A stretch of DNA of 64,000 bases. Source: Knoellia flava TL1 (GTDB lineage: Bacteria > Actinomycetota > Actinomycetes > Actinomycetales > Dermatophilaceae). The stretch spans positions 124,001 to 188,000 of the forward strand of contig NZ_AVPI01000012.1 in the NCBI RefSeq assembly GCF_000768675.1, read 5' to 3'. The position numbers and the translations under genes are program-made. Positions within the stretch are counted from its first letter, which is position 1; each line of letters opens with the position of its first letter. Of this stretch, positions 3 to 62,475 are shown piece after piece. The notes beneath the pieces are model-generated. The model worked only from the letters and a program-made list of their open reading frames with translations. It was not told the origin of the DNA and did not search any database.

Positions 3-1718
3 ATGACGGTGGCCCCGAAGCGGCCCGCGGCGATGACGCTGGCGGCACACTTCCCGGAGCGCACGCAGGCCGAGTGGCGCGAGCTCGCAGCGGCCGTCGT
101 CAACAAGAGCCGGCCGGAGGGTGAGCAGCTCGACCCCGACGCCGCCGTGGAGTCGATGCGCAGCCACCTCCCCGGTGGGCTCGTCGTCGAGCCCCTCTAC
201 ACCCGGGCCGACGAGCCCGCACTGCTCGGCGTCCCGGGCGCCATGCCGTTCACCCGTGGCCGGGCCCTGCGTGACGCCGACGTGCCCTGGGACGTCCGCC
301 AACTCCACGACGACCCCGACGCCGCGGCGACCCGCAAAGCGGTCCTCGCCGACCTCGAGAACGGCGTCACCTCCGTGTGGCTCCACGTCGGCGCCGACGG
401 CCTCGCCCCCGCCGACGTCGCCGAGGCGCTCGCGGACGTGCGGCTCGACCTCGCACCCGTCGTCGTGTCGTCGTGGGACGACCAGGTGGGCGCCGCCGAG
501 GCCCTGTATGCCGTCCTCTCGGCCTCCGCCGCGGGCTCCGGCAACCTCGGCCACGACCCGGTCGGCGCGGCCGCCCGCACCGGCACCGCCCCTGACCTCG
601 CCCCGCTCGCCGGGGCGGTCGCGAGGCTGGCCGACCACGGCGAGGTGCGTGCGATCACCGTCGACACCCGCGTCCACGCCGACGCCGGGGCCACCGTGCC
701 CGACGAGGTGGGCTTCGCGCTCTCGACCGGTGTGGCCTACCTGCGCCACCTCGAGGCCGAGGGTGTCTCCGTCGAGGAGGCCTTCCGCCACGTCGAGTTC
801 CGCGTGAGCGCCGGCGCCGACCAGTTCCTCGCAGCCGCCGCGCTGCGCGCGCTGCGCCGGACGTGGGCGCGCGTCGGCGAGAGCATCGGCGTGCCCGAGC
901 GGTCGCGCGGTGCCCGCACGCACGCCGTGACCTCCGGGCGCATGTTCACCCGCGACGACGCGTGGACCAACATCCTGCGCAGCACGCTCGCGACCTTCGG
1001 CGCCAGCCTCGGGGGCGCCGACGCCATCACCGTGCTGCCCTTCGACACCGTGTCCGGGCTGCCGACCCCCTTCTCGCGGCGCATCGCCCGCAACACGCAG
1101 ATCCTGCTCGCCGAGGAGTCCAACGTCGCGCGGGTCACCGACCCTGCCGGTGGCGCGTGGGCCGTCGAGGCGCTCACCGACGAGGTGGCGACCGCGGCCT
1201 GGTCGACCTTCCAGGAGGTCGAGCGCGCGGGCGGCATGGTCGACGCCCTCGCGAACGGGCTTGTCGCAGAGCGCATCGCGGATGCCGTCGCCGAGCGCGA
1301 CGCCGAGCTGGCGACACGCGTGCGTCCCATCACCGGGGTGAGCACCTTCCCGCTGGCCGGGGAGAAGCGGCTCGAGCGCCGGGCCCGCCGCGAGCTGACG
1401 GTGTCGCCCGAGGCCCTCGAGCCCCACCGCGACTCGGCCGTCTTCGAGGCGCTCCGGGACCGCTCGACGGCATACGCGGCTCGACACGGACACGCCCCAC
1501 GGGTCGCCGTGCCGCTGCTCGACGTCCCCCGCGCGGGCGACCGGCGCGTCGACGCGGTCAACCTGCTCACCGTCGCCGGCATCGACGCGGTCGACGCGGG
1601 CGAGCCGTCCGAGGCCGTGCTCGTCGCGGCCGGCAAGGGCTACGAGGGCGTGACCCCGGGCATGGACGTCGTCGACTTCCTGTCCTCCCTCCTCGACGTC
1701 ATGGGAGCACCGGCATGA
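3..1718 (+). CDS. mutA: Methylmalonyl-CoA mutase small subunit (MutA)
   Basis: Non-catalytic beta chain of the adenosylcobalamin-dependent methylmalonyl-CoA mutase heterodimer, which interconverts succinyl-CoA and (R)-methylmalonyl-CoA in propionate metabolism. The mutase TIM-barrel fold spans roughly residues 60-420 ([18 protein letters not shown], then [16 protein letters not shown]), followed by a B12-like C-terminal domain that lacks the DxHxxG cobalamin motif, as expected for this chain. The 571-residue reading is slightly short for the family. The ATG at base 3 is at the very edge of the window, so a start upstream cannot be excluded; ATG at 33 (MTLAAHFPE) is another candidate. The stop overlaps the mutB start (ATGA), so the subunits are translationally coupled. 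Confidence 0.93.
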
Positions 1719-3940
1719 GCACCATCCCCGACTTCAGCCAGGTCGAGCTCGGCGAGCCGACGGTGAGCACCAGCGGTGAGGCCGCGACCGTCGACGGTCA
1801 GGTCTGGACCACCCCCGAGCAGATCGAGGTGCCGCCGCTCTACACCGAGGCCGACCTCGAGGGGCTCGACTTCCTCGACACCATCCCGGGCGCCCCGCCG
1901 TTCCTGCGCGGTCCCTACCCGACGATGTACGTCAACCAGCCGTGGACGATCCGTCAGTACGCCGGCTTCTCCACCGCCGAGGAGTCCAACGCCTTCTACC
2001 GCCGCAACCTCGCCGCCGGGCAGAAGGGCCTGAGCGTCGCGTTCGACCTCGCGACCCACCGCGGCTACGACAGCGACCACCCGCGGGTCGAGGGCGACGT
2101 CGGCATGGCCGGTGTCGCGATCGACTCGATCTACGACATGCGCACCCTCTTCGACGGCATCCCTCTCGACCAGATGTCGGTGTCGATGACGATGAACGGG
2201 GCCGTCATCCCGGTGCTCGCGCTCTTCGTCGTCGCGGCCGAGGAGCAGGGCGTTGCACCCGAGCAGCTCTCGGGGACCATCCAGAACGACATCCTCAAGG
2301 AGTTCATGGTCCGCAACACCTACATCTACCCGCCCGAGCCGTCGATGCGGATCATCAGCGACATCTTCGCCTTCACCTCCGAGAAGATGCCGCGCTTCAA
2401 CTCGATCTCGATCTCGGGCTACCACATGCAGGAGGCCGGGGCGACGCAGGACCTCGAGCTCGCCTACACCCTCGCCGACGGCGTCGAGTACCTCCGCGCG
2501 GGCAAGGCCGTCGGGCTCGACGTCGACCGCTTCGCGCCGCGGCTGTCCTTCTTCTGGGCGATCGGCATGAACTTCTTCATGGAGGTCGCCAAGATGCGCG
2601 CGGCCCGCCTCCTCTGGGCGCGGCTCGTCGAGGAGCAGGGCGCGAAGAACCCCAAGTCGCTCAGCCTGCGCACGCACTGCCAGACGAGTGGGTGGTCGCT
2701 CACCGCGCAGGACGTCTTCAACAACGTCGTCCGCACGTGCATCGAGGCGATGGCGGCGACGCAGGGCCACACGCAGAGCCTGCACACCAACGCCCTCGAC
2801 GAGGCGATCGCGCTGCCGACCGACTTCAGCGCGCGCATCGCCCGCAACACCCAGCTCGTCATCCAGCAGGAGTCGGGCACGACCCGCACCATCGACCCGT
2901 GGGCCGGCTCGGCCTACGTCGAGCGGCTCACCCACGACATCGCCGAGCGGGCGTGGGCGCACATCGAGGAGGTCGAGGCCGCGGGCGGCATGGCCAAGGC
3001 CATCGAGGCCGGCATCCCCAAGATGCGCATCGAGGAGGCGGCCGCCCGCACCCAGGCTCGCATCGACTCCGGTCAGCAGCCGGTCATCGGCGTCAACCGC
3101 TACGTCCCCGACCTCGACGAGGAGATCGAGGTCCTGAAGGTGGACAACGCGGCCGTGCGCGCCAGCCAGGTCGCCAAGCTCGAGCGCCTGCGCGCCGAGC
3201 GCGACGAGACCGTATGCCGTGCCGCGCTCGAGCGCCTCACCGCGGCCGCGCGGGCCGGCTCGGACGGCAGCCTCGAGACCAACCTGCTCGCGCTCGCCAT
3301 CGACGCGGCCCGGGCCAAGGCGACCGTCGGCGAGATGTCGCAGGCGATGGAGGAGGCCTTCGGCCGCTACACCGCCCAGATCCGTACGATCGGTGGCGTG
3401 TACTCCGACGAGGCCGGCTCCGACGCCAACGTGCGCCGGGCGCAGGACCTCGTCGAGGAGTTCGAGGAAGCCGAGGGTCGCCGGCCCCGCATCCTCGTCG
3501 CCAAGATGGGCCAGGACGGCCACGACCGTGGTCAGAAGGTCATCGCGACGGCCTTCGCCGACCTCGGCTTCGACGTCGACGTGGGTCCGCTCTTCCAGAC
3601 GCCGACGGAGGTCGCGCGCCAGGCCGTCGAGTCCGACGTGCACGTCGTCGGGGTCTCGTCGCTCGCCGCCGGTCACCTCACGCTCGTGCCTGCGCTGCGC
3701 AAGGAGCTCGACGCGCTCGGTCGCGAGGACCTCATGATCGTCGTCGGTGGCGTCATCCCCACGCAGGACTTCGACGACCTGCGCGCCGCGGGTGCGGACG
3801 CGATCTACCCGCCCGGCACCGTCATCGCGACGGCTGCGATCGACCTCATCGGCGACCTGCGCTCGCGGCTCCACGGCGACGCGCAGCCGACGGACGACCC
3901 GAGCGCGGGCGTCGCCGCCGACGCCACGGGTGGCGCGTGA
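1715..3940 (+). CDS. mutB: Methylmalonyl-CoA mutase large subunit (MutB/ScpA)
   Basis: Catalytic alpha chain of methylmalonyl-CoA mutase, 741 residues, the usual length. The N-terminal two thirds is the substrate-binding TIM barrel ([35 protein letters not shown]). The C-terminal cobalamin domain carries the base-off B12 motif GQDGHDRG, with the cobalt-ligand histidine at about residue 603, followed by GVSSLAAGH and the GGVIP loop. It starts four bases before the end of mutA and its stop overlaps the meaB GTG start (GTGA), so the three genes form one tightly coupled operon for propionyl-CoA/odd-chain and branched-chain degradation. Confidence 0.98.
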
Positions 3941-4917
3941 CCGACGAGCTGTTCGACGGGATCCGCGCGGGGCAGCGCGCTGCCGTCGCCCGTGCCATCA
4001 CCCTCGTCGAGTCGAGCCGGCCCGACCACCGCGAGAGGGCACGGGCGCTCCTGCGGGAGCTCACGGCATACACGGGTTCGGCGGTCCGGGTCGGTGTCTC
4101 GGGGGTGCCGGGCGCCGGCAAGTCGACCTTCGTCAACGCGATGGGGCTGCGGCTCATCGAGGCCGGGCACAAGGTGGCGGTCGTCGCCGTCGACCCGAGC
4201 TCGCGGCGCACCGGTGGTTCGATCCTCGGTGACCGCACGCGGATGGGTGAGCTGGGTGCGAGCGACTCCGCGTTCGTGCGCCCGAGCCCGAGCGGTCGGC
4301 ACCTCGGGGGAGTGGCGCGGGCGACACGCGAGTCGATGCTCGTGCTCGAGGCAGCCGGGTTCGACGTCGTCATCGTCGAGACGGTCGGCGTCGGTCAGAA
4401 CGAGATCGCCGTGTCCGAGATGGTCGACACGTTCCTCCTGCTCACCCTCGCTCGTGCCGGCGACCAGCTGCAGGGGATCAAGCGCGGCATCCTCGAGCTC
4501 GCCGACGTCATCGCGGTCAACAAGGCCGACGGCGACGGCGAGAACCCCGCGAAGGCCGCGGCCAAGGACCTCGCCGCCGCGATGCGGCTCATGCTGCCGG
4601 GCGCCGATGTGCGCCGCCCGCCGGTGCTCACCTGCTCGGCGCAGACGGGCGCCGGCCTCGACGAGGTCTGGGCGGCGGTGCTCGAGCACCGGGAGCACCT
4701 CGAGTCGCAGGGCTCGCTCGAGTCGCGGCGCGCCCAGCAGCAGCAGGACTGGATGTGGGCGCTCGTCGAGTCCCACCTCGAGGAGGCCGTGCGCGTGGCG
4801 CCGGCGGTCCGCTCGCAGCGTGCCGAGATCGAGGCAGCCGTGCGGTCCGGCGAGCTCAGCGCCGTCGACGGCGCCGCCCGCATCCTCGACCTCTTCCTCG
4901 CTGCGCGACCCGACTGA
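3937..4917 (+). CDS. meaB: Methylmalonyl-CoA mutase-associated G3E GTPase MeaB
   Basis: SIMIBI-class G3E GTPase that protects methylmalonyl-CoA mutase and gates loading of its adenosylcobalamin cofactor (ArgK/MeaB family). The 326-residue protein has Walker A GVPGAGKS at residues 56-63, the [19 protein letters not shown] switch region, ETVGVGQNE and the NKADGD guanine-specificity motif. The GTG start overlaps the mutB stop, which decides the start since no in-frame alternative fits as well. Co-operonic position with mutAB is the classical context and fixes the function. The C-terminal helical dimerisation arm is present. Confidence 0.96.
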
Positions 4918-4926
4918 TCGCGTCGG

Positions 4927-6174
4927 TCAGCCCGTGGCCGGGGTGCGCCAGCCGGCCGGGGCGACGCCGCGGCGCCTCGCCAGCCAGAGCAGCACCGCGG
5001 TGACGACCGCTGTCGCGACGACGTTCATCGCCGCCGAGACCGGCGAGCCCTGGGTCTCGCCTGAGATGTAGGACTCCTCGAGGCCGCCGAGCAGGATGCC
5101 GGTGACCATGATGAGGACGTTGTTGACGACGTGGAGGACGATGACCGCCTCCAGTCCGCCCGTCCGCCACGCCAGCCAGCAGCCGGCGACGGCGAGCGAT
5201 CCGAGCTCGACGACGATCCACGGGTCGGCCGAGCCGTGCGCGGCGGCGAAGGTCGCGGTCGACAGCGCGGCGGTCAGCGCGAGGGCCACCAAGGGGGAGC
5301 GGACCCACGCGCCGACTCCCTGCACGAGCCCGCCCCGGAAGGCCACCTCCTCGCCGGCCGCCTGCAGGGGAGTCGTGAGCAGGGTGATGGTGAGCAGCGC
5401 GCCCCAGCTCTCCGGTCGGTCGAGGACCTCCTGGTCGAAGACGAACCACGTCACGAGCAGGTAGGCCCCCCACAACGGGGTGACGACGAGCAGGCACCAG
5501 CCCAGCCAGCCCCACCGGAGCCTTCCGGTGACCGACAGCACCCGCCACGGACTGCGTCGGAACCCCACCCAGAGCCCGACGAGGGTGGCCGGGACGAGCG
5601 CCGCGAGGAGCAGGTTCAGCGACAGGGAGGCCCACGGGTCGAGGGGGTTGAGCATCTCCTCCTCGGACTCGACGAGGAGGAGGGACGGCACCGAGAGCAC
5701 CGCCGCGCTCACGAGCCACACCCCGACGGCCACCGCCAGGGCGAGGAGCGGCCGCCACCAGCGGTAGCGCGGCCCCCGCATCTGGTGCACGTAGGTGCGC
5801 GGCTCCCGCTCGCCCGCCTCGAGCGCGGCGGCCTCGGCAGCCCGCTTCTCGGCGACGAGCCGGTATGCCGCCCGCTGCCGCGCCTGCCCGACGAACCACG
5901 CGGGCGGCTCGGTCGGGGAGACGAGCACCGGGGTGCCCGAGCCGTGCGCGCCCCATGCGGCGCGGCGCAGACCCTCCGCCTCCGGTGCCTCGGGCCAGGA
6001 CAGGAACCACAGCGCGTCGAAGCCGGCGAGGTCGCCGCCCTCGACCCGCCGCGTCGTCAACGGCGACCACTCGAGGTCGGGGGCGACTCCCCGGGAGAGC
6101 GCCCGGGCACGGGCGAGCGACTGCTGGTCCTCGAGGTGGCCGGGGTCCCCCACGGCGGCGATGCGCACGGTCAT
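4927..6174 (-). CDS. CPBP-family intramembrane metalloprotease with extra N-terminal soluble domain
   Basis: Integral membrane protein of the CAAX-protease/bacteriocin-processing (CPBP, Abi) family. About six hydrophobic segments lie after residue 139. The glutamate motif EEVAFR is at residues 275-280, a further histidine at 313 (AAHGS) and the HVVNN motif at 348-352, so the catalytic set is intact. Unusually, residues 1-135 are a soluble alpha/beta-looking segment (MTVRIAAVGDPGH; FDALWFLSW) ending in a charged linker. The start ATG at 6174 is chosen because GAGACT lies seven bases upstream as a possible -10. It converges on meaB with only nine bases between stops. Substrate unknown. Confidence 0.85.
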   Translation of the reverse strand: MTVRIAAVGDPGHLEDQQSLARARALSRGVAPDLEWSPLTTRRVEGGDLAGFDALWFLSWPEAPEAEGLRRAAWGAHGSGTPVLVSPTEPPAWFVGQARQRAAYRLVAEKRAAEAAALEAGEREPRTYVHQMRGPRYRWWRPLLALAVAVGVWLVSAAVLSVPSLLLVESEEEMLNPLDPWASLSLNLLLAALVPATLVGLWVGFRRSPWRVLSVTGRLRWGWLGWCLLVVTPLWGAYLLVTWFVFDQEVLDRPESWGALLTITLLTTPLQAAGEEVAFRGGLVQGVGAWVRSPLVALALTAALSTATFAAAHGSADPWIVVELGSLAVAGCWLAWRTGGLEAVIVLHVVNNVLIMVTGILLGGLEESYISGETQGSPVSAAMNVVATAVVTAVLLWLARRRGVAPAGWRTPATG

Positions 6175-6262
6175 GGGCACAGTCTCACCGAGCGTGCTGG
6201 GAGGATCATCGACCCGGGGTCGCGGACGGCATACGACCTTCGTCTGGCAGGCAGGCGTCGAT

Positions 6263-8571: not shown

Positions 8572-8713
8572 GGCCGTGGGCACCTCAGTGCATCACGGCA
8601 TACAGCAAGGTCTGCCGAGCTCACAGACAGAGGTGAGCTGGGCTGTTCGAGCCCTTGTGGCTCGGTCTTCACGAGGCGTCATATAGCGGTCGCCCGTGGG
8701 AAGGAAAATCACC

Positions 8714-10525: not shown

Positions 10526-10586
10526 ACGGCATACGTGACAGGGCCGGTCACCTCCTCGTGAGGTGACCGGCCCTTCCGTATGCCGT
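10526..10586 (+). terminator. rplQ terminator bracketed by an inverted GTATGCCGT pair
   Basis: A perfect 14-bp stem (10540-10553 / 10561-10574) with a seven-base loop follows rplQ by about 25 bases. It is flanked on the outside by ACGGCATAC (10526-10534) and GTATGCCGT (10578-10586), which are themselves inverted copies of the window's over-represented word and could extend the hairpin. Confidence 0.8.
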
Positions 10587-10651: not shown

Positions 10652-11365
10652 ATGGACTGGAACTCCTACGACGCTGCCCTCTTCGACCTCGACGGCGTGC
10701 TCACCCCGACGGCCGAGGTGCACATGAGGGCGTGGGACGAGATGTTCAACGCCTACCTCGCGTCCAAGGGCATCGAGGAGCCCTACACCGACCAGGACTA
10801 CTTCGACCACGTCGACGGCCGGCCGCGCTACGACGGCGTCCGCGCGTTCCTCGCCTCGCGCGGCATCGAGCTGCCCGAGGGCGACCCCTCGGACAGCCCC
10901 GACGAGGAGACCGTGAGCGGTCTCGGCAACCGCAAGAACGACGCCTTCAACGCGGTCCTCGCGCGCGACGGCGTCGAGGCGTATGCCGGCTCGCTGCGGC
11001 TGCTCGACGCCCTCGCCGAGCGCGGCACGAAGATGGCCGTCGTCTCCTCGTCGAAGAACGCGCCGGCTGTGCTCGAGGCCGCGGGCATCGCGGACCGCTT
11101 CCCGGTCGTCGTCTCCGGTGCGGTCGCGGCCGAGCTGGGGCTCGCGGGCAAGCCGTCGCCCGAGACCTTCCTCCACGCCGCGAGCGAGCTGGGGGTGACC
11201 AAGGAGCGCGCCGTCGTCCTCGAGGACGCGACGTCGGGCGTCAAGGCCGGGCGGGACGGCGACTTCGGCCTCGTCGTCGGCGTCGACCGCGGCGCCGGGG
11301 CCGAGGGCCTCACCGCCGCGGGTGCCGACGTCGTCGTGCGCGACCTCGAGGAGCTGCTGCCGTGA
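10652..11365 (+). CDS. HAD-IA hydrolase, probable beta-phosphoglucomutase
   Basis: 237-residue haloacid-dehalogenase-type enzyme. The nucleophile motif FDLDGVLTPT puts the catalytic aspartates at 12 and 14; motif II is VVSSSKN, the lysine is in GKPSPETF and the metal-binding acids in VVLEDATSGVKAG. Beta-PGM converts beta-glucose 1-phosphate, the product of inverting GH65 phosphorylases, to glucose 6-phosphate. The next gene is such a phosphorylase and starts within this stop codon (GTGA), which makes beta-PGM the best reading; a related trehalose-type phosphatase is less likely. The start at 10652 is supported by a -10 hexamer just upstream. Confidence 0.85.
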   Translation: MDWNSYDAALFDLDGVLTPTAEVHMRAWDEMFNAYLASKGIEEPYTDQDYFDHVDGRPRYDGVRAFLASRGIELPEGDPSDSPDEETVSGLGNRKNDAFNAVLARDGVEAYAGSLRLLDALAERGTKMAVVSSSKNAPAVLEAAGIADRFPVVVSGAVAAELGLAGKPSPETFLHAASELGVTKERAVVLEDATSGVKAGRDGDFGLVVGVDRGAGAEGLTAAGADVVVRDLEELLP

Positions 11366-13902
11366 GGTTCGACTTCGACGGCACCGACCCGCTCGACCGC
11401 GAGCGGTTCCCCATCGACGAGTGGCGGCTCGTCGAGAGGTTCCCGAGCGACAACGACCTCGGACTCACCGAGACCCTCTTCGCCATCGGCAACGGCTACC
11501 TCGGGATGCGCGGCAACCCGCCCGAGGGTCGCCCGTCCGCGGCGCACGGGACCTTCGTCAACGGGTTCCACGAGACGTGGGACATCCACCATGCCGAGCA
11601 GGCGTTCGGCTTCGCGCACACCGGTCAGACGATCGTCAACGTGCCCGACAGCAAGGTCATGAAGCTCTACGTCGACGACGAGCCGCTGCTGGTCTCGACC
11701 GCCGACCTCGTCGAGTACGAGCGCTCGGTCGACTTCCGCGACGGCACGCTCCGCCGCCACCTCGTCTGGCGCACGCCGTCGGGCAAGGTCGTGCAGGTTG
11801 ACACGACGGCGATGATCTCGTTCGTCGAGCGCCACCTCGCGATCCTCTCCATCGAGGTGACGATGCTCGCGGGCAGCGCGCCCGTCGTCATCTCGAGTCA
11901 GATCCTCAACCGGCAGGACGGCGCCGACGAGTACCAGGACCGCGAGGCGATGGCCAAGAAGGACGGCTGGGACCCGCGCCAGGCCGGCGCCTTCACCTCC
12001 CGCGTGCTCGTGCCGCAGGGCGACTGGCACAGCGACCGACGGATGATCCTCGGCTACAAGTGCGCCCGCTCCGGCATGACCCTTGCCGTCGGCGCCGACC
12101 ACACCATCGAGACCGACAACGTCGTCGAGGAGCTCATCGACACCGAGCCCGACCTCGGCAAGAAGGTCTACCGGGTCGACGCCGCCGAGGGGAAGACGAT
12201 CCGGGTCACCAAGGCTGTCGCCTACCACTCCTCCCGTGGCGTGCCGGCGCGCGAGCTCTTCGACCGCTGCCGGCGCACCCTCGACCGGGTCCGGCGCGAC
12301 GGGGTGCAGGTCCAGCTCGACCAGCAGCAGAGCTGGGTGGAGAAGTACTGGGCCAACGCCGACGTCGAGGTCGAGGGCCATCCGGAGGTGCAGCAGGCCG
12401 TGCGCTGGAACCTCTTCCAGATCGCGCAGGCCTCGGCCCGCGCGGACCAGCTCGGGGTCGCCGCCAAGGGCGTCACCGGCAGCGGCTACGAGGGCCACTA
12501 CTTCTGGGACACCGAGATCTACGTCGTCCCGTTCCTCGCCCACACCTTCCCGACGGCCGCGAAGAACCTCCTGCGCTTCCGGGTCAACCTGCTCGAGCAC
12601 GCCCGTGCGCGGGCGCGCGAGCTCGCCCAGCGCGGGGCGCTCTTTCCGTGGCGGACGATCAACGGGCTCGAGGCATCGGCCTACTACGCAGCAGGCACCG
12701 CGCAGTACCACATCGACGCGGACGTCGCGTATGCCGTGGCTCGCTACTGCGACGCGACCGGCGACAAGGACTTCCTTCGCCGCGACGGGGCGGAGATCCT
12801 CGTCGAGACCGCACGCCTGTGGGCCGACCTCGGCTTCTGGCGGGTCGACGGCGGGCGGACGTTCCACATCCACGGCGTCACCGGACCGGACGAGTACACG
12901 ACGGTCGTCAACAACAACCTCTTCACCAACGTCATGGCCCGGTTCAACCTCGAGCGGGCGGCCGCGGTCGTGAGGGGCCTGCGCGAGGACGACCCCACGG
13001 CATACGCGCTCCTGCGGTCCCGGCTCAACCTCCAGGACGAGGAGGTCGACGAGTGGGAGGACTGCGCGGCCCACATGGCAGTGCCCTTCGACGAGGGGCT
13101 GGGCATCCACCCGCAGGACGAGAACTTCCTCGACCGCGAGCTGTGGGACCTCTCGCAGACCCCGCCGGAGAAGCGGCCGCTGCTGCTCAACTACCACCCG
13201 CTCGTCATCTACCGGTTCCAGGTGCTCAAGCAGGCCGACGTCGTCCTCGCGATGCTGCTCCAGGGCGACCGCTTCACCTCGGAGGAGAAGCGGCGCAACT
13301 TCGAGTACTACGACCCGATCACCACGGGCGACTCTTCGCTGAGCGCGGTCGTGCAGTCGATCATCGCCGCCGAGGTGGGGCACCACCAGTGGGCGATGCA
13401 CTACTTCCTCTCGGGCCTCTTCGTCGACCTCGCCGACCTTCACGGCAACACCTCCGACGGCGTGCACATCGCCTCGGCCGGTGGGGTGTGGAACGCCCTC
13501 GTCTACGGGTTCGCCGGGATGCGCGACTACGGGGACGGGCTCACCTTCGACCCCCGACTCCCGAGCGCGTGGCCGAGCCTCAGGTTCCCCCTGCGGGTCC
13601 ACGACACGAGGCTGCGCGTCGAGCTCGAGCAGGAGTCGATCACCTTCACTCTCCTCGAGGGCGACCCGGTCACGGTGTCGGTGCGCGGCGAGAGCCACGA
13701 GGTGGGGGCCGACGGTCCCACGCGCGTTCCGCTCGACGGGCAGGGGCCGCGGCTCACGCACCTCGTGCCGCGCCAGCCGGCGCCGGTGGTGCGTGCCGAC
13801 GGCACGGTCATCACGGCGGGGGTGCCCACCGACCCGGAGACCCTCGCCGAGGAGGCGGCGCTGCAGTCGAGCTCGGGTCAGCCGATCTCGACGGTGCCCT
13901 GA
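11362..13902 (+). CDS. Glycoside hydrolase family 65 protein (maltose/trehalose/kojibiose phosphorylase)
   Basis: 846-residue GH65 enzyme of the inverting alpha-glucoside phosphorylase group. The N-terminal beta-sandwich (LFAIGNGYLGMRGNPPEG) is followed by the (alpha/alpha)6 barrel; the general acid is Glu511 in HGVTGPDEYTTVVNNN, and the phosphate-site region HPLVIYRFQVLKQADVV and GLFVDLADLHGNTSDG are present. With the coupled HAD phosphoglucomutase it would turn a disaccharide plus phosphate into glucose and glucose 6-phosphate in the cytoplasm. Which disaccharide is used cannot be told from sequence by eye. The GTG start overlaps the HAD stop; the 3' end overlaps the convergent DUF2087 gene by 25 bases. 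Confidence 0.93.
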   Translation: MRFDFDGTDPLDRERFPIDEWRLVERFPSDNDLGLTETLFAIGNGYLGMRGNPPEGRPSAAHGTFVNGFHETWDIHHAEQAFGFAHTGQTIVNVPDSKVMKLYVDDEPLLVSTADLVEYERSVDFRDGTLRRHLVWRTPSGKVVQVDTTAMISFVERHLAILSIEVTMLAGSAPVVISSQILNRQDGADEYQDREAMAKKDGWDPRQAGAFTSRVLVPQGDWHSDRRMILGYKCARSGMTLAVGADHTIETDNVVEELIDTEPDLGKKVYRVDAAEGKTIRVTKAVAYHSSRGVPARELFDRCRRTLDRVRRDGVQVQLDQQQSWVEKYWANADVEVEGHPEVQQAVRWNLFQIAQASARADQLGVAAKGVTGSGYEGHYFWDTEIYVVPFLAHTFPTAAKNLLRFRVNLLEHARARARELAQRGALFPWRTINGLEASAYYAAGTAQYHIDADVAYAVARYCDATGDKDFLRRDGAEILVETARLWADLGFWRVDGGRTFHIHGVTGPDEYTTVVNNNLFTNVMARFNLERAAAVVRGLREDDPTAYALLRSRLNLQDEEVDEWEDCAAHMAVPFDEGLGIHPQDENFLDRELWDLSQTPPEKRPLLLNYHPLVIYRFQVLKQADVVLAMLLQGDRFTSEEKRRNFEYYDPITTGDSSLSAVVQSIIAAEVGHHQWAMHYFLSGLFVDLADLHGNTSDGVHIASAGGVWNALVYGFAGMRDYGDGLTFDPRLPSAWPSLRFPLRVHDTRLRVELEQESITFTLLEGDPVTVSVRGESHEVGADGPTRVPLDGQGPRLTHLVPRQPAPVVRADGTVITAGVPTDPETLAEEAALQSSSGQPISTVP

Positions 13903-15307: not shown

Positions 15308-16153
15308 ATGACGTTGACGCGAGTGCGGATCGACCTCGCCTACGACGGCACCGACTTCTCCGGGTGGGCCGCCCAGCCGGGTCGGCGCACGGTCGAGGGC
15401 GAGCTCTCCGCCGCGCTGACGACACTCCTTCGCGCGCCGGATCCCGTGCGGCTCACTGTTGCCGGGCGCACCGACGCAGGAGTCCACGCCCGCGGGCAGG
15501 TCGCCCACGCCGACATCGACAGGGCCGCGTATGCCGGCCTGCCGGGTCGTTCGTCGCGCTCACCCGAGGAGGCGGCCAGGACCCGGCTCGCCGGCATCCT
15601 GCCGCCGGACGTCGTCGTGCGGTCGGTCGCTGTCGCGCCGGAAGGCTTCGACGCCCGCTTCTCTGCCCTGCGCCGGCGCTACACCTACCGGATCTGCGAC
15701 CACCCGGGCACCCTCGACCCGTTGCGACGGCGCGACACCGTCGTCGTCAAGGACGAGCTGGACGTGACGGCGATGTCCGACGCTGCGGGCCGGCTCGTCG
15801 GCCTCCACGACTTCGCCGCCTTCTGCAAGCGGCGCGAGGGTGCGACGACCGTCCGGACGCTGCTCGACTACTCCTGGAGCCGTGGCGACGACGGCATCCT
15901 CGAGGGGCGCGTCGTCGCGGATGCGTTCTGCCACAGCATGGTTCGTGCGCTCGTCGGGTCCGTCGTCCCGGTCGGTCAGGGGCGGGCGCCGGTCGGCTTC
16001 CCGCAGGACATCCTCGGCGCACGTCAGCGCGACCCCCGCGTCGCGGTCATGCCGGCCCACGGCCTCTCGCTCGAGGAGGTCTCCTACCCCGCGGACGCCG
16101 ACCTCGCGGCGCGCGCCGAGGAGGCGCGCTCCACCCGTACCCTCATCGACTGA
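15308..16153 (+). CDS. truA: tRNA pseudouridine(38-40) synthase TruA
   Basis: 281-residue enzyme that isomerises uridines 38-40 in the anticodon arm. The catalytic aspartate is Asp56 in AGRTDAGVHARGQVAH; RIDLAYDGTDFSGWAAQPG and SFCHSMVRALVGSVVPVG-like (DAFCHSMVRALVG) blocks are typical. In actinobacteria truA normally follows rplQ directly; here 4.8 kb of carbohydrate and cell-wall genes separate them. ATG at 15308 is chosen because the preceding in-frame sequence lies inside the divergent promoter region and TAGGCT is placed for a leaderless start. Confidence 0.96.
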   Translation: MTLTRVRIDLAYDGTDFSGWAAQPGRRTVEGELSAALTTLLRAPDPVRLTVAGRTDAGVHARGQVAHADIDRAAYAGLPGRSSRSPEEAARTRLAGILPPDVVVRSVAVAPEGFDARFSALRRRYTYRICDHPGTLDPLRRRDTVVVKDELDVTAMSDAAGRLVGLHDFAAFCKRREGATTVRTLLDYSWSRGDDGILEGRVVADAFCHSMVRALVGSVVPVGQGRAPVGFPQDILGARQRDPRVAVMPAHGLSLEEVSYPADADLAARAEEARSTRTLID

Positions 16154-20865: not shown

Positions 20866-20920
20866 GACGTGCTCCCTTGCCTCGTCCCGTGTATGCCGTC
20901 CGGTCACCCGTGCGTCGTGC

Positions 20921-32416: not shown

Positions 32417-34128
<1,712 letters not shown>

Positions 34129-40301: not shown

Positions 40302-40384
40302 CGGCTCCTCCTGTGCCCGTCGTACCCCAGTCCATCGACGGTACTCCCGCCGGACGGCATACAGGGGGGGTTCAGGTGCGCCCG

Positions 40385-42225: not shown

Positions 42226-42315
42226 GAGAAGTTGAACCGTCAAGGACTGTGGAGTGTTCCCCCCGCCGTATGCCGGCCGCGCACCGTTGCGCGTTCGCCC
42301 TCGCCGCCATCGACC

Positions 42316-45484: not shown

Positions 45485-45705
45485 GCGGCGGGAGGTTCCT
45501 CGCCCTCCTGGCGGGGCTGCTCGGCGTCGCGTTCGTCCTCGTGTGGGTGCTCGTCAGCGTGGCCGCGCTCGTCTACGCCCTCACCAACGAGGACGGCGGG
45601 TCGGCGGGTACGTATGCCGGGCTGGCGGTCGCCGGCCTCGCCGTGGGGGCGCTCGCGGGGTGGGGCGTCCGTCGCGTGGCGAGGGCACGCCGGCCGCCCC
45701 GGTAG
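45481..45705 (+). CDS. Small two-helix membrane protein
   Basis: 74 residues, GTG start overlapping the Nudix stop. Two hydrophobic segments (FLALLAGLLGVAFVLVWVLV region and AGLAVAGLAVGALAGWGV) joined by an acidic loop TNEDGGSAG, then a basic end VRRVARARRPPR. No recognised family. Translational coupling and GC3 codon use argue that it is real. Confidence 0.65.
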   Translation: MSGGRFLALLAGLLGVAFVLVWVLVSVAALVYALTNEDGGSAGTYAGLAVAGLAVGALAGWGVRRVARARRPPR

Positions 45706-46867: not shown

Positions 46868-46925
46868 CTTGTATGCCGGTGGGTCGTCGGCGTCGGCGTC
46901 GGCGTCGTCGGAGTCGCCAGGGTCA

Positions 46926-49046: not shown

Positions 49047-50689
49047 GCGGCGTCAACTGGACCGCACTGGTCGTCCTCACGGCCCTGTTCCTGCTCGTCA
49101 CCGTCATGGGCTTCATGGCCACGCGGTGGCGCCGTCCGACGAGCATGGAGTCCCTCGACGAGTGGGGCCTCGGCGGTCGCTCGTTCGGCACGTGGATCAC
49201 GTGGTTCCTCCTCGGAGGCGACCTCTACACGGCATACACGTTCGTCGCGGTGCCGGCGGCGATGTTCGCGACCGGTGCCGTCGCGGGCTTCTTCGCTGTG
49301 CCCTACACGATCGTGCTCTACCCGATCATCTTCGTCTTCATGGCGCGGCTGTGGTCGGTGAGCCACCGGCACGGCTACGTCACCCCGGCCGACTTCGTCA
49401 AGGGTCGCTACGGCAGCCGTGAGCTCTCGCTCGCCGTCGCCCTCACCGGCTTCCTCGCGACGATGCCTTACATCGCCCTCCAGCTCGTCGGAATCCAGGC
49501 CGTGCTGGAGGTCGTCGGCCTCGGCGGTGGCAGCAACATCATCGCCAAGGACGCACCGCTCTTCATCGCCTTCGCCCTGCTCGCGGCCTACACCTACAGC
49601 AGCGGCCTGCGCGCCCCGGCGGTCATCGCGTTCGTCAAGGACACGCTCATCTACCTCGTCATCATCGTCGCGATCATCTACCTGCCCACCAAGGTCGGTG
49701 GCTGGGACTCCATCTTCGGCGCCGCCGAGCAGAAGATGACGACGGTCAACGAGGCGACGGGCAAGCCGACGGGGGCGTTCATCCCCGGCAGCACGCAGAT
49801 GTGGGCCTACGCGACGCTCGGCCTCGGCTCGGCGCTCGCGCTCTTCATGTACCCCCACTCGATCACGGCGAGCCTGTCGGCGAGCGGCCGCAACGTCATC
49901 CGGCGCAACGCCGCGATCCTGCCGGCCTACTCGTTTGTGCTCGGCCTCCTCGCCCTCCTCGGTTGGGTCGCCATCGCGGCGGGCACGAAGCCGATCGGCC
50001 TCGACGGCAAGCCCAACGCGCAACTCGTCATCCCGCAGCTCTTCGAGGACATGTTCCCGAGCTGGTTCGCGGGCATCGCCTTCGCGGCCATCGCCATCGG
50101 CGCGCTCGTGCCCGCGGCGATCATGTCGATCGCGGCGGCCAACACGTTCACCCGCAACATCTACCGCGAGTGGCTCAAGCCGGATGCGTCGCCGCAGCAG
50201 GAGGCCAAGGTCTCCAAGCTCGTCTCGCTCGTCGTCAAGGCGTTCGCGCTCGTCTTCGTCCTGCTCCTCGACAAGCAGAACGCGATCAACTTCCAGCTCC
50301 TCGGTGGCATCTGGATCCTCCAGACGTTCCCGTCGATCGTCTTCGGCCTCTACACCCGCTTCTTCCACCGGTGGGCGCTGCTCGCCGGCTGGGCGGTCGG
50401 CATGGTCTACGGCACCTGGTCCGCCTACAACGTCGTCAACCCGGTGACGGGCGCGCACTTCGGTGGCTCGCTCGCCAACATCCCGGGCATCGCGCAGATG
50501 GGCTACATCGCGATGACGGCCTTCGTCATCAACCTCGTCATCGCCGGTGTCCTCAGCGCGGTCCTCAACGCCATGAAGGTGTCGAACGGCCACGACGAGA
50601 CCATCAAGGGCGACTACTTCGCCGACGCGGGCGACCCCCGCGTCGAGAAGCTCGACGTCGGTCCGCACGAGACCACGGCCAGCCCGTGA
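49043..50689 (+). CDS. Sodium:solute symporter, monocarboxylate type (MctP-like)
   Basis: 548-residue SSS-family transporter with about 13 hydrophobic helices (WITWFLLGGDLYTAYTFVAV; VTPADFVKGRYGSRELSLAV; GALVPAAIMSIAAANTFTRN). The preceding DUF3311 gene and DEWGLGGRSFGTW region match MctP-type carriers for lactate, pyruvate, propionate or acetate; uptake of propionate would fit the mutAB operon but is inference. Acidic hydrophilic C-terminus. Confidence 0.9.
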   Translation: MSGVNWTALVVLTALFLLVTVMGFMATRWRRPTSMESLDEWGLGGRSFGTWITWFLLGGDLYTAYTFVAVPAAMFATGAVAGFFAVPYTIVLYPIIFVFMARLWSVSHRHGYVTPADFVKGRYGSRELSLAVALTGFLATMPYIALQLVGIQAVLEVVGLGGGSNIIAKDAPLFIAFALLAAYTYSSGLRAPAVIAFVKDTLIYLVIIVAIIYLPTKVGGWDSIFGAAEQKMTTVNEATGKPTGAFIPGSTQMWAYATLGLGSALALFMYPHSITASLSASGRNVIRRNAAILPAYSFVLGLLALLGWVAIAAGTKPIGLDGKPNAQLVIPQLFEDMFPSWFAGIAFAAIAIGALVPAAIMSIAAANTFTRNIYREWLKPDASPQQEAKVSKLVSLVVKAFALVFVLLLDKQNAINFQLLGGIWILQTFPSIVFGLYTRFFHRWALLAGWAVGMVYGTWSAYNVVNPVTGAHFGGSLANIPGIAQMGYIAMTAFVINLVIAGVLSAVLNAMKVSNGHDETIKGDYFADAGDPRVEKLDVGPHETTASP

Positions 50690-50741: not shown

Positions 50742-50769
50742 ACCGGTCCGCGGACGGCATACGGGCAGG

Positions 50770-52917
50770 ATGGGTGACGTGACCCCCACCGCCCCGTCCG
50801 CCGCCCTCGTCGAGCTCGCGCACGCCCACGGTGTGGCGACCGACTTCCACGACTGGCTGGGCCAGCACACGGTCATCTCGGACCGGACCCTGCGCACCGT
50901 CCTCGGCGCTCTCGGCGTCGACGCCGGCTCCGAGGAGGCCGTCTCGGCCGCGCTTGCGGACGCCGAGAACCGCCCGTGGCGGCGCACCCTCCCACCCACC
51001 GTCGTATGCCGTGCCGGCTGGACTCCCTGGGTCCACGCCCACGTGCCCCACGGGAGCGGCGTGAGACTCACCGTGGAGCTCGAGGACGGGACGACCCGCG
51101 ACGTGCCCCAGGTGGAGCGCTGGGTCCACCCGCGCACCATCGACGGGCGCGAGGTCGGTGAGGCGACGTTCGAGCTGCCCGGCGACCTGCCGACGGGGTG
51201 GCACCGCATCGTTGCCCACCTCGACGCACCGGCGGTGACCGACGGCACCGACACGGCCACCCTCGTCGTCACGCCGCAGCGGCTCGAGCTGCCCGAGGCG
51301 CTGCGCCACGGCGGGGTGACCGGGCTCATGACGCAGATCTACCAGGTGCGGTCCGCCGCATCATGGGGCGTGGGCGACCTGGGTGACCTCGGCGACCTCG
51401 CGTCGTGGGCGGCGACGGAGCTCGGTGCGGAGTTCGTCCTCGTCAACCCGCTGCACGCCGCCGAGCCGGTCGTGCCGATGGAGGCCTCGCCCTACCTGCC
51501 GACGACGCGGCGCTTCGTCAACCCGGTCTACCTCCGGGTCGGCGACATCCCCGAGCTCGTGCGACTCGACGCCGGTGCCCGCGCCCGGGTCGACGAGCTC
51601 GCCGACTCGGTCCGCGCCCTCGACGCCACGGACACGATCGACCGCGACGCCGCATGGACGGCGAAGCGCGAGGCGCTCGGCCTCATTCACGCACTCGGGC
51701 TGGAGGGGCGGCGGGCGCGCGACTTCGAGCGCTTCCGTGAGCGCGAGGGGGAGGGTCTGGCGACCTTCGCGACGTGGTGCGCGCTCGCCGAGCGCCACGG
51801 GCTGCCGTGGACGGACTGGCCGGTCGAGCTCCACGACCCGGCGTCACCGGCGGTGACCGAGTTCGCCGCGGCGCAGGCCGACCTCGTCGACTTCCACATG
51901 TGGCTCCAGTGGCTGCTCGACCGCCAGCTCGGCGAGGTCCAGCGCGAGGCGACGGAGGCCGGCATGTCGCTCGGCATCGTCCACGACCTCGCCGTCGGCG
52001 TGCACCCCTTCGGCGCCGACGCGTGGGGCCTGGCCGACGCGCTCGCGAGGGGCGTGACGGTCGGGGCTCCGCCGGACCAGTTCAACCAGCTCGGCCAGAA
52101 CTGGTCGCAGCCGCCGTGGCATCCCGAGCGGCTCGCGGAGCTCGGCTACGCGCCGTTCCGCGACATGGTCCGCACGGTCCTGCGCGACTCCGGGGGCATC
52201 CGCGTCGACCACGTCATCGGCCTCTTCCGCCTCTGGTGGATCCCGCAGGGCGAAGGGCTCACCCCTGCCGACGGCACCTACGTCACCTACGACCACGAGG
52301 CCCTCATCGGCATCCTCTGCCTCGAGGCCGAGCGTGCCGGCGCCGTCGTCATCGGCGAGGACCTCGGCGTCGTCCCCGCCATCGCCCGCGACTACCTCAG
52401 CGAGCGTGGGGTGCTCGGGACGAGCATCATGTGGTTCGAGAACACCGACGGGGCGCCGACGCCTCCCGAGAGCTACCGCGAGCTCTGCCTGTCGTCGGTG
52501 ACGACGCACGACCTGCCGCCGACAGCCGGCTTCCTCGCGCTCGAGCACGTCGCCATCCGCGAGCGGCTGGGCCTGCTCACCCGGCCGGTCGAGGAGGAGC
52601 GGGCCGCCGAGGAGCACTCGATCGCCACGGTCCGCGACGCGCTCGTGGCGCGCGGCTGGCTCGAGCCCGGAGCCGGGCCGGCGTCGATGGTCGAGGCAAT
52701 GCACCGTTGGATCGGCCATACCCCCAGCGTGCTGCGCGCGGTCTCGCTCGCGGACGTCGTCGGCGACCGCCGCGCCATCAACCAGCCGGGCACCGAGGAC
52801 GAGTACCCCAACTGGCGACTCCCGCTCACCGGCCCGGACGGACGACCGGTCTCGCTCGAGGACGTCATGGGGTCCACGCTCGCGGAGCCTCTCTTCCGCG
52901 CCACCCGGGGCGACTGA
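50770..52917 (+). CDS. malQ: 4-alpha-glucanotransferase (GH77)
   Basis: 715-residue amylomaltase of the long actinobacterial type: an N-terminal extension of about 165 residues with a beta-sandwich (VRLTVELEDGTTRDVPQVER) before the GH77 barrel (LMTQIYQVRSAASWGVGDLG; NPLHAAEPVVPMEASPYLPT). Catalytic acids lie in GIRVDHVIGLFRLWWIP (nucleophile Asp), VVIGEDLGVVP (Glu) and SVTTHDLPPTAGF (Asp). It disproportionates maltodextrins in the cytoplasm, linking the secreted amylase to the GH65 phosphorylase. Start may be ATG 50770 or GTG 50779, the latter with CAGGAT as a -10. Confidence 0.95.
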   Translation: MGDVTPTAPSAALVELAHAHGVATDFHDWLGQHTVISDRTLRTVLGALGVDAGSEEAVSAALADAENRPWRRTLPPTVVCRAGWTPWVHAHVPHGSGVRLTVELEDGTTRDVPQVERWVHPRTIDGREVGEATFELPGDLPTGWHRIVAHLDAPAVTDGTDTATLVVTPQRLELPEALRHGGVTGLMTQIYQVRSAASWGVGDLGDLGDLASWAATELGAEFVLVNPLHAAEPVVPMEASPYLPTTRRFVNPVYLRVGDIPELVRLDAGARARVDELADSVRALDATDTIDRDAAWTAKREALGLIHALGLEGRRARDFERFREREGEGLATFATWCALAERHGLPWTDWPVELHDPASPAVTEFAAAQADLVDFHMWLQWLLDRQLGEVQREATEAGMSLGIVHDLAVGVHPFGADAWGLADALARGVTVGAPPDQFNQLGQNWSQPPWHPERLAELGYAPFRDMVRTVLRDSGGIRVDHVIGLFRLWWIPQGEGLTPADGTYVTYDHEALIGILCLEAERAGAVVIGEDLGVVPAIARDYLSERGVLGTSIMWFENTDGAPTPPESYRELCLSSVTTHDLPPTAGFLALEHVAIRERLGLLTRPVEEERAAEEHSIATVRDALVARGWLEPGAGPASMVEAMHRWIGHTPSVLRAVSLADVVGDRRAINQPGTEDEYPNWRLPLTGPDGRPVSLEDVMGSTLAEPLFRATRGD

Positions 52918-52930: not shown

Positions 52931-53650
52931 TCAGGCGTCGACCGGCACTGAAGCGAGCTGACGCGCGAAGGCGTCGGCGACGGAATACCCCGTCGTCCGC
53001 AGCGCCTCGCGACGCGACTCCATCGCCTCGAGCCAGGTCGTGGGGGAGTCGGGGGCCTCGTGCGGCTCGGGCCGGAAGCCCGTCATCCAGCCCCTGAAGA
53101 TCTCGGGGGTCGTCTCGGGGTGGAACTGCACACCCCAGGCCCGCGTCCCGAAACGGGCAGCCTGGACCGACCCGTCGGGCCCCGTCGCGAGCGACCGCGC
53201 CCCCAGCGGGAGGCGGCTGACGACGTCGCCGTTGTAGTGGACGACGTCGCGACCGCCGAGCCCGGCCAGGAGGTCATCGGACGCGCCAGCAGCACTGAGG
53301 GACAACGAAACCAGCCCGCTCGTGCGCCCTCTCGGGTTGAGCGCGACCTCGCCGCCGAGGGCGACGCCGAGGAGCTGGTGGCCCAGGCAGACGCCGAGTG
53401 TCGGTATGCCGTCCGCTACCGCGGTGCGCAGCAGCGCCTTCGTCGGTGCGAGCCATGGGAACGCGTCGTCCTCGTAGGCGTTCATCGCCCCGCCGAGGAC
53501 GACGAGGGCGTCGTGCTGGAGCCGATCCGGAACGGTGTCGCCGAGGTCGCCACGCACCGTCTCGATGGTGATGCCGTGCTCCACCCAGCGTTCGGCGAGC
53601 CATCCGCCGGGTGCCTCGGGCTCGTGCTGGACGACGAGGATGCGCGTCAT
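52931..53650 (-). CDS. Class I glutamine amidotransferase
   Basis: 239 residues, stand-alone GATase domain: nucleophile Cys88 in LGVCLGHQLLG, oxyanion region VVLGGAMNAYEDD and His/Glu in WGVQFHPETTPE, so the triad is complete. Resembles GMP synthase-like YfeJ/GuaA-type amidotransferases without a synthetase partner; substrate unknown. Start ATG overlaps the stop of the VIT1-like gene (ATGA). Confidence 0.88.
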   Translation of the reverse strand: MTRILVVQHEPEAPGGWLAERWVEHGITIETVRGDLGDTVPDRLQHDALVVLGGAMNAYEDDAFPWLAPTKALLRTAVADGIPTLGVCLGHQLLGVALGGEVALNPRGRTSGLVSLSLSAAGASDDLLAGLGGRDVVHYNGDVVSRLPLGARSLATGPDGSVQAARFGTRAWGVQFHPETTPEIFRGWMTGFRPEPHEAPDSPTTWLEAMESRREALRTTGYSVADAFARQLASVPVDA

Positions 53651-54673: not shown

Positions 54674-54772
54674 GGCTCCAGCCTGTCCCGGCTGGGCGGG
54701 TCCGTCCAGCAAGGCGCGCCTATCCGACGTCCGGTCGCGGACGGCATACGGGAGCGATGCCTGCAACGCGCG

Positions 54773-55781: not shown

Positions 55782-56953
<1,172 letters not shown>

Positions 56954-59053: not shown

Positions 59054-60064
59054 TCACCTCGTCCGGACTCGGGGGTCGATCACGGCATACATGATGTCGA
59101 CCAGCAGGTTGACGATGACGTAGATGCCTGCGGCAGCAAGGATCAGGACTTGGAGGACCGCGTAGTCGCGCAGGCGGAAAGCCGTGGCGAGGGCGTCTCC
59201 GACGCCCGCGAAGCCGAACACCGTCTCCGTGAGGACCGCGCCGGCGAGCAGTGCACCGACCTGGAGCCCGATCGTCGTCGTCACGGGCAGCATGGCGTTG
59301 CGCAGGATGTGACGCCCCCGGATGATCCGGGCGGTGAGGCCCTTGGACTCGGCGGTGCGGATGTAGTCCTCGTCGAGGACCTCGAGCACCGAGGCGCGGG
59401 TGATCCGGAAGACCACGGCGAACGGGATGGTCGCCAGGGTGACCGCCGGGAGGATGAGGTGCTTGAACGAGTCCCACGCGGCATCCCACTCACGGGTGAG
59501 GATGCCGTCGAGGACGAAGAAGCCGGTGATCCGGGTCGCGTCCAGTCCCGTGCTCTGGCGCCCTGACACGGGGAGCCACCCCAGCTCGATGGCGAACACG
59601 CGCTGGAGCAGGAAGCCGAGGAAGAAGACGGGGACCGCGACGCCGATGAGCGAGCCGACCACCGACGCGTTGTCGAGGAACGTCTCCTTGCGACGTGCTG
59701 CGAAGTAGCCCAGGGGGATGCCGAGGGCGACGGCGATGGCGAGAGCGAAGAGGCTCAGCTCGATCGTCGCGGGAAGCCTCTGCAGGAAGATGTCCAAGGC
59801 GTCGCGGCCGGGGAGCACCGCGGTCGACGGGCCGAAGTTGCCCTGCAGGACGCGGCCGACGAACTTGGCGTACTGCACCCAGACGGGCTGGTCGAGGCCG
59901 AACTGGGCCTCCATGGCGGCCCGTGAGGCTGGGGTGGCGCGCTCACCGAGGATCGCCGAGACGGTCCCTCCGGGAAGGGAGCGCAGCCACAGGAACAACA
60001 ACAACGACAACACGATGAGCACGCCGACCATCTGCACGAGCCGGCGGACGATGAACCTCAGCAC
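59054..60064 (-). CDS. dppB: Dipeptide/oligopeptide ABC transporter permease DppB
   Basis: 336 residues, GTG start. Canonical OppB N-terminus MLRFIVRRLVQMVGVLIVLS, six hydrophobic helices and the EAA loop (YIRTAESKGLTARIIRGRHI). Forms the translocation pore with DppC. A hairpin separates it from dppA. Confidence 0.94.
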   Translation of the reverse strand: MLRFIVRRLVQMVGVLIVLSLLLFLWLRSLPGGTVSAILGERATPASRAAMEAQFGLDQPVWVQYAKFVGRVLQGNFGPSTAVLPGRDALDIFLQRLPATIELSLFALAIAVALGIPLGYFAARRKETFLDNASVVGSLIGVAVPVFFLGFLLQRVFAIELGWLPVSGRQSTGLDATRITGFFVLDGILTREWDAAWDSFKHLILPAVTLATIPFAVVFRITRASVLEVLDEDYIRTAESKGLTARIIRGRHILRNAMLPVTTTIGLQVGALLAGAVLTETVFGFAGVGDALATAFRLRDYAVLQVLILAAAGIYVIVNLLVDIMYAVIDPRVRTR

Positions 60065-61963: not shown

Positions 61964-62019
61964 CCGCACCATGCATTTGTTTATCGGAGTGAGACCCGGA
62001 TCCGGGAAGGAGTGGCGAC

Positions 62020-62475
62020 GTGTCCACCGAGCAGCCGAACGACCTCGTCGAGGTGGTCGCCGCAGCACTCGTCGACGACCTCGCGCGGCCGACGCAGATC
62101 CTCGCCGCGCGCCGCACCGAGCCGGCCGAGCTCGCCGGGGGCTGGGAGCTGCCCGGCGGCAAGGTCGACCCCGGCGAGACCAGCCTCGAGGCGCTCCACC
62201 GCGAGCTGCTCGAGGAGCTCGGCGTCGAGGTCTCCGTGGGCGACCGGGTCGACGGCCCGCTCGAGCGCGGTCGCTGGCCGCTGGGAACGGCATACGCGAT
62301 GACGGTCCACCTCGCCGAGGTGACGGAGGGCGTGCCCGAGCCGATCGAGGACCACGACGAGCTCCGCTGGCTCGGGGCGGACGACCTGTATGCCGTGCCG
62401 TGGCTTCCCGGGGACCTCCCGATCGTCGACGCACTGAGTGAGGTCCTGGCGGAGTCCCGCCGTTTTCGTCCCTGA
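62020..62475 (+). CDS. MutT-like Nudix hydrolase
   Basis: 151 residues. N-terminal [20 protein letters not shown] and the Nudix box [20 protein letters not shown] followed by ELGV match the 8-oxo-dGTP diphosphatase (MutT) group that sanitises the nucleotide pool. GTG start at 62020 with GGAAGGAG about seven bases upstream. Divergent from dppA and 25 bases ahead of typA. Confidence 0.92.

Follow-up and report, generated by a model that had tools for sequence, protein, structure and literature searches.

Each orientation of a short DNA word, GTATGCCG, forms its own evenly spaced ladder along the genome of Knoellia flava TL1, as we observe in a 64,000-nucleotide stretch (positions 124,001 to 188,000 of contig NZ_AVPI01000012.1, assembly GCF_000768675.1; C12:124001-188000 in our numbering; hereafter the window, with a G+C content of 70%) and in a second contig, C1, of the same genome (G000; 3.56 Mb in 94 contigs). 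Of 2964 plasmid records that match positions 24001-32000 of the window, the 12 best listed are all actinobacterial, at about 66-73% identity. By analogy with known systems, GTATGCCG(T) is probably a DNA-uptake sequence of this actinobacterium, preferred by its competence machinery, a reading to which we give a probability of about 0.7. It would then work like the uptake signal sequence (USS) of Pasteurellaceae and the DNA uptake sequence (DUS) of Neisseriaceae.

Our count of GTATGCC in the window gave 49 copies, 26 on the forward and 23 on the reverse strand; the first-pass annotation of this DNA had reported 48 (about 26 and 22), with coordinates that are correct to within 2 bases, and had missed the copy at 8597. 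Since G is the next base in all 49 copies, the word is the eight-letter GTATGCCG, and 38 of the 49 carry the longer form GTATGCCGT, in line with the earlier remark that most copies are extended. Of 50 occurrences of the shorter TATGCC in the window, all but one lie within GTATGCCG. Base composition had been said to account for only a handful of copies, and a tri- and tetranucleotide model derived from the window indeed predicts 1.94. The whole genome holds 2541 copies (1268 forward and 1273 reverse) against 94 (44 and 50) of a reversed-word control, and the enrichment is about 39-fold; the word is thus short, non-palindromic, present in both orientations and in genome-wide excess, as uptake sequences are. 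Among 327 cores, T stands at position 9 in 61%, and C or G at position 13 in 94%. Words with one mismatch to GTATGCCG were found 264 times against 211 expected from a word-masked model, an excess of 0.16 per perfect copy, with the largest excesses for GGATGCCG (82 against 45), GTAGGCCG (47 against 25) and CTATGCCG (11 against 3); given this small near-miss excess, the core is strict.

The arrangement of the copies by strand is an observation that goes beyond the earlier annotation. Over 424 kb, 35 pairs of same-orientation copies lie less than 1 kb apart, compared to 85 ± 6.5 when orientations are permuted (minimum 61 in 5000 permutations), whereas opposite-orientation pairs number 137 against 115 expected, alike in both arrangements. 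Random placement gives a coefficient of variation of per-strand spacing of 0.94-0.99, whereas the values observed are 0.49 and 0.56 for the part of C1 from 60 to 306 kb and 0.54 and 0.43 for the window. The sampled 360 kb of C1 contain 132 forward and 131 reverse copies, or one per about 2.7 kb on each strand; this balance agrees with the earlier view that the word is not replication-polar. Copies with and without the ninth T exclude one another on the same strand (13 pairs seen, 55 expected), and therefore both forms behave as one kind. Near-miss words show at most a hint of exclusion towards GTATGCCG (for GGATGCCG, 41 same and 55 opposite, with 59 expected), and seven control octamers, with few pairs each, show none (28 same, 20 opposite, 24.4 expected).

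Even spacing, and the presence of the word along the whole 360-kb C1 sample except for one island, would also suit a site bound by a chromosome-organizing or nucleoid protein; however, an organizer that binds duplex DNA should be indifferent to orientation, and the exclusion is limited to copies of the same orientation. In addition, the dialects differ among genera and no clear word was seen in several relatives; we regard a nucleoid site as quite unlikely. A recognition site for methylation, restriction or a bacteriophage exclusion (BREX)-type system could likewise be short and non-palindromic, but enrichment of about 39-fold and avoidance of same-orientation neighbors would be unexpected in such a site; we know of no reason for recognition sites to show either, and consider this explanation very unlikely.

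To provide a yardstick, we examined 423 copies of the USS AAGTGCGGT in 65 Pasteurellaceae stretches of 8 kb, each picked for one USS with a set tail (80 of 120 stretches were taken, from which 10 non-Pasteurellaceae and 5 overlapping stretches were removed). Same-orientation USS pairs occur at 0.0 (0-30 bp), 0.34 (30-100 bp), 0.24 (100-200 bp) and 0.40 (200-400 bp) of expectation and come near expectation beyond 600 bp, whereas the ratios for opposite pairs are 5.7 (0-30 bp; 29 pairs against 5.1 expected), 1.96, 0.54 and 0.71 in the same intervals. A known uptake sequence therefore shows a same-strand exclusion like that of GTATGCCG, with a shorter range and with close inverted pairs in addition. 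That USS avoid same-orientation more than opposite-orientation neighbors within about 400 bp is an observation in its own right, one not mentioned in the portions available of the literature consulted. The available text of one study does cite significantly even spacing of Haemophilus influenzae USS (PMC1939737), and that of another places 23% of them less than 100 bp from another USS (PMC7811141). Taken together, the arrangement and near-miss spectrum of GTATGCCG are like those of USS, with a different range of exclusion and few close inverted pairs.

We analyzed the relation of the word to genes in 451 kb of G000 (the window, 360 kb of C1, and the contigs carrying comEC and tad), with 432 gene calls. 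Of 327 copies, 251 are genic, compared to 19.7 ± 4.0 after shuffling of synonymous codons within genes (200 shuffles, maximum 35), so that the excess persists under a codon-aware test. The density is 1.62 copies per kb outside genes and 0.62 per kb inside, as expected from the earlier impression that the word is frequent in non-coding DNA. The genic copies (133 sense, 118 antisense) mostly read Tyr-Ala (TAT GCC, 110) or Ala-Tyr (GCA TAC, 94), and 110 of the 233 TAT codons and 94 of the 1062 GCA codons lie within GTATGCCG, as the first-pass annotation had suggested. The predominance of two dipeptides is what one would expect if the word simply reflected a bias in codons, dipeptides or mutation, but this account is refuted by the synonymous-codon shuffling and sits poorly with the higher density outside genes and with the control octamers, which lack the exclusion; it is scarcely credible.

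Newly acquired DNA and coding sequence are described as poor in uptake sequences (PMC7811141, in the part available), and both tendencies are seen for GTATGCCG, the first in one island only. This island, the sole gap of more than 10 kb in the C1 sample, spans 30.3-49.6 kb (G000:C1:30272-49622), i.e., about 19 kb with no GTATGCCG, has a GC content of 0.65 and encodes an rve-type (IS3-like) transposase and an OmpA-domain protein; it is a single case and not a survey.

Our search for GTATGCCG in 58 genomes, which included 28 genera of the family with one genome each outside the own genus, demonstrated high counts in all nine genomes of the own genus (1971-3277 copies, with reversed controls of 54-276). 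Twelve of the 28 family genera (the own genus and those of G011, G012, G013, G015, G019, G020, G025, G028, G029, G032 and G034) exceed 900 copies with at least five times the count of the reversed word, and the 22 genomes from other families contain at most 167 copies, at most 3.6-fold over control. When the window is aligned to five sister species, the copies are intact at 36 of 44 sites in G008, 23 of 37 in G003, 25 of 34 in G004, 24 of 32 in G006 and 24 of 37 in G005, while octamers of the same composition are kept at 52%, 36%, 38%, 38% and 40%, respectively. In other words, 62-82% of GTATGCCG sites are kept compared to 36-52% of octamers, or 1.6-2 times as many, and the copies are conserved between related species as the first-pass annotation had asked.

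Related genera contain variant words, or dialects. To find them, we sampled 20-40 kb of each of 22 relatives, and more of some. For example, the dialect of G023 is CGTATGCCGCTG, with GTATGCCGCT present 59 times against 0.18 expected (240 kb) and a near-miss excess of 0.17 per perfect copy, and that of G033 is GGATGCCG (140 against 17.8 expected in 160 kb), with the longer forms CGGATGCCG and GGATGCCGG. GGATGCCG is also in excess in the G024 sample (18 against 1.7 expected), and genome-wide it occurs 3816 times in G024 (reversed control 392) and 3949 times in G033 (reversed control 289). The dialects GTACGCCG in G030 (61 against 9.1 expected in 100 kb) and CGTACGCC in G031 (45 against 8.3) were found in the same way, G034 shows a joint excess of GTATGACG, GTATGGCG and GTATGCCG (L070-L071), and for G027 the data are thin (GTATGCGGT, 6 copies in 20 kb). 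The mix of variants in G034 looks as though there were little constraint on the sixth base. Another family of the same order, f19, contains CGGATGCC, which by its letters appears related to GTATGCCG, in 15 of 17 genomes at seven-fold or more over control and with 713-2118 copies per strand; the exceptions are G103 (2.6-fold) and G235 (3.7-fold). None of the other genomes among the 248 searched, a sample that does not include G024 and G033, exceeds about four-fold. GTATGCCG is thus kept across the species of its genus, and dialects of it occur across genera.

Other observations were made in the same samples. In G055, a member of f19, 7 of 17 CGGATGCC copies in 20 kb have TC next. The degenerate word GGAGNCGG, in excess in G014 (L065, L157-L162), is not counted as a dialect, since strand exclusion is not clear (189 same, 240 opposite, 225 expected). 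No clear word was found in the 20-kb samples of G036, G039, G043 and G046. A moderate, about two-fold excess of TCGCCGA and CGGTGA in G021, G035, G018 and G010, which have no clear word, is likely codon-related.

Strand-wise evenness is also present, in weaker form, in two genomes with dialects. In G023 the per-strand coefficients of variation are 0.62 and 0.67, where random placement gives 0.92; in G033 they are 0.75 and 0.78, where it gives 0.97. Same-orientation pairs of GTATGCCGC in G023 number 0 against 8 expected below 1 kb and 5 against 16 expected at 1-3 kb, and GGATGCCG in G033 forms 29 same and 59 opposite pairs with 61 expected. In small samples, the same/opposite counts below 1 kb are 9/28 in G006, 8/15 in G003, 8/14 in G012, 7/18 in G031 and 1/5 in G034 (for GTATGACG), and G032 has no pair of either kind (0/0).

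A Chi-like signal is the main rival to the uptake reading, and may be the other strand-reading version of the word. Under this explanation AdnAB, the actinobacterial resection helicase-nuclease, would read the word on one strand while travelling inward from a double-strand break, and each strand would need its own ladder, with opposite copies invisible, as the strand-autonomous spacing would have it. Adjoining PDDEXK_1 genes of AdnAB size (about 1050 and 1120-1140 amino acids) are present in G003, G006 and G007, among others, and how AdnAB manages Chi-like recognition is called unclear in the available part of a 2026 paper (PMC13309787). However, PDDEXK_1 proteins, including AdnAB-sized neighbors, are found in 57 of the 58 genomes and in 36 of 36 family genomes regardless of the word (AdnAB pairs not verified singly), and strand-wise exclusion is also shown by known USS. 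E. coli K-12 Chi (GCTGGTGG), for its part, is skewed in a 300-kb stretch (51 forward, 31 reverse), compared to 132 and 131 for GTATGCCG, and its same-strand pairs below 1 kb, 19 against 11.7 under uniform placement, show no exclusion. RecC, present in 18 of the 58 genomes, was found in none of the nine of the genus, so that GTATGCCG is not a RecBCD Chi; neither RecBCD reading nor the orientation skew and spacing seen in E. coli applies to it. We consider an AdnAB signal unlikely.

G000 encodes the competence proteins ComEA (SLBB and helix-hairpin-helix domains) and ComEC with a beta-lactamase-like domain, and pilus proteins of Tad type, i.e., one T2SSE and two T2SSF proteins with an adjoining ParA/MinD-like ATPase. 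Competence machinery is therefore present in the genome, a finding that does not discriminate, as word-free relatives also carry the genes. PilM occurs in 13 of the 58 genomes. Several candidate readers were rejected: PilM with its type IVa pilus (T4aP), and RecBCD by way of RecC, are missing from the genus, and T2SSF, PDDEXK_1/AdnAB, ComEC and ComEA are present both with and without the word. Two loci in relatives stood out separately. In G022, which has no clear word, a T2SSF match (G022:C1:713912-714262) is interrupted by an in-frame TGA and is possibly a broken Tad platform gene, and in G018 the Tad locus (L149:11029-13323) adjoins a DEAD-box helicase with HRQ1/MrfA-type domains. G014 is the one genome of the 58 without a T2SSF match.

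A number of our results weigh against an uptake sequence. ComEC and T2SSF pilus genes are each found in 57 of the 58 genomes, and ComEA adjoins ComEC in 30 of 30 loci examined, word-free relatives included in each case; type IVa PilM was found in none of the nine genomes of the genus; and no gene family that we searched tracks the word, so that no candidate reader protein emerged. Samples of 40-80 kb from G009, G010, G016, G017, G018, G021, G022, G026 and G035 gave no clear word. Exclusion in G033 is weaker for the longer forms (CGGATGCCG 11 same and 20 opposite, 20.6 expected; GGATGCCGG 7 and 8, 12.8 expected), and the near-miss excess of GGATGCCG there, 0.65, is larger than that of GTATGCCG. 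Small samples of G019 (10 same, 7 opposite), G029 (7 and 5), G030 (15 and 16), G024 (6 and 8) and G027 (1 and 1) show no exclusion or no clear one. Close inverted pairs of GTATGCCG are not conspicuous (17 against 11.5 expected below 100 bp). Finally, uptake by H. influenzae is orientation-independent according to the available text of PMC1939737, unlike the exclusion of GTATGCCG, which is strand-specific to about 1 kb.

An uptake-type word, one of three possibilities offered by the first-pass annotation, is nevertheless favored by the count, the dialects, the absence from the island, the near-miss tail and the USS-like strand-wise spacing. We infer that GTATGCCG is bound during transformation and that biased uptake drove its spread. 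This would account for the excess, the balance of orientations, the dialects, the near-miss tail and the lack of copies in foreign DNA. Fragments bearing the tag would enter and recombine more often, copies would accumulate and be kept chromosome-wide in both orientations, and a separate evenly spaced ladder on each strand would result. In sister genera whose reader changed, a dialect would have taken the place of the word throughout the genome, and genera without a word may have lost selectivity. The reader would act on one strand, with copies on the same strand mutually redundant and copies on the opposite strand not. In Gram-positive transformation one strand passes through ComEC, and strand-wise exclusion therefore fits a word that is read on the imported single strand; it also fits a strand-tracking enzyme. 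In either case the strand concerned, imported through ComEC or followed by the enzyme, would itself have to bear the word. The fuller proposal, of a monoderm DNA-uptake sequence read on a single strand with dialects in two actinobacterial families, is put forward tentatively.

Uptake sequences are described for Pasteurellaceae and Neisseriaceae, both Gram-negative, in the literature consulted, and we found no actinobacterial uptake sequence in the open-licence literature searched, which is no proof that none is published. Our findings suggest that tagging of DNA for self-uptake also exists in some Gram-positive bacteria of high GC content. If this is true, the dialects of the word in two actinobacterial families would mean that self-preferring transformation arose in Gram-positives too; the word would predict which actinobacteria are transformable and which DNA is suitable, and would be of practical use as a tag in genetics. 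Any model of the action and spread of such words has to account for the strand-wise spacing, a property that can be counted, and every published genome with uptake sequences offers a place to check it.

Table 1. Copies of GTATGCCG in the window, with positions counted from its first nucleotide.
Element	Position	Strand	Remark
GTATGCCG	506..513	+	
GTATGCCG	1468..1475	-	
GTATGCCG	3212..3219	+	
GTATGCCG	4064..4071	-	
GTATGCCG	5863..5870	+	
GTATGCCG	6227..6234	-	
GTATGCCG	8596..8603	-	not in the earlier list
GTATGCCG	10527..10534	-	
GTATGCCG	10578..10585	+	
GTATGCCG	10981..10988	+	
GTATGCCG	12729..12736	+	
GTATGCCG	12998..13005	-	
GTATGCCG	15529..15536	+	
GTATGCCG	17070..17077	+	
GTATGCCG	17249..17256	-	
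GTATGCCG	19385..19392	+	
GTATGCCG	20289..20296	-	
GTATGCCG	20891..20898	+	
GTATGCCG	22770..22777	+	
GTATGCCG	23020..23027	-	
GTATGCCG	24150..24157	+	
GTATGCCG	24240..24247	-	
GTATGCCG	25790..25797	+	
GTATGCCG	28405..28412	-	
GTATGCCG	28686..28693	+	
GTATGCCG	31358..31365	+	
GTATGCCG	31813..31820	-	
GTATGCCG	33586..33593	+	
GTATGCCG	34072..34079	+	
GTATGCCG	34490..34497	-	
GTATGCCG	37630..37637	+	
GTATGCCG	38449..38456	-	
GTATGCCG	39455..39462	-	
GTATGCCG	40355..40362	-	
GTATGCCG	42268..42275	+	
GTATGCCG	44815..44822	-	
GTATGCCG	45432..45439	-	
GTATGCCG	45612..45619	+	
GTATGCCG	46248..46255	+	
GTATGCCG	46871..46878	+	
GTATGCCG	49230..49237	-	
GTATGCCG	50755..50762	-	
GTATGCCG	51004..51011	+	
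GTATGCCG	53404..53411	+	
GTATGCCG	54742..54749	-	
GTATGCCG	56901..56908	+	
GTATGCCG	59083..59090	-	
GTATGCCG	62288..62295	-	
GTATGCCG	62388..62395	+	

Several known systems invite comparison. Like Chi, GTATGCCG is short and asymmetric and would be read from a single strand, but it has no orientation skew (360 kb) and is evenly spaced per strand, which Chi in E. coli is not (300 kb), and the genus lacks RecC. Micrococcus luteus, compared here through the literature, likewise has actinobacterial ComEA/ComEC and Tad pili, with Tad/Flp-dependent transformation, and no uptake sequence is mentioned in the available parts of the two studies (PMC8467076, PMC6370729), the first of which, from 2021, describes competence in Actinobacteria as little known. 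The DUS of Neisseriaceae are unrelated to GTATGCCG in letters and have ComP as their reader, while no ComP-like reader was identified here; they resemble it in that related genera have variants of a word with a common core, while some members of the family have no word (PMC3630211, in the part available). The USS of Pasteurellaceae is a known uptake sequence, whereas GTATGCCG is known here from sequence alone, in a high-GC actinobacterial host and in a genus with no PilM-type T4aP; the word itself is different, its exclusion reaches about 1 kb rather than 0.4 kb, and it has few close inverted pairs. The two are alike in length, in being non-palindromic and present in both orientations at about one copy per 1.2-1.4 kb, in their near-miss excess (0.21 per perfect copy for AAGTGCGGT in the 65 stretches, 0.16 for GTATGCCG), and in the short-range exclusion of neighbors in the same orientation.

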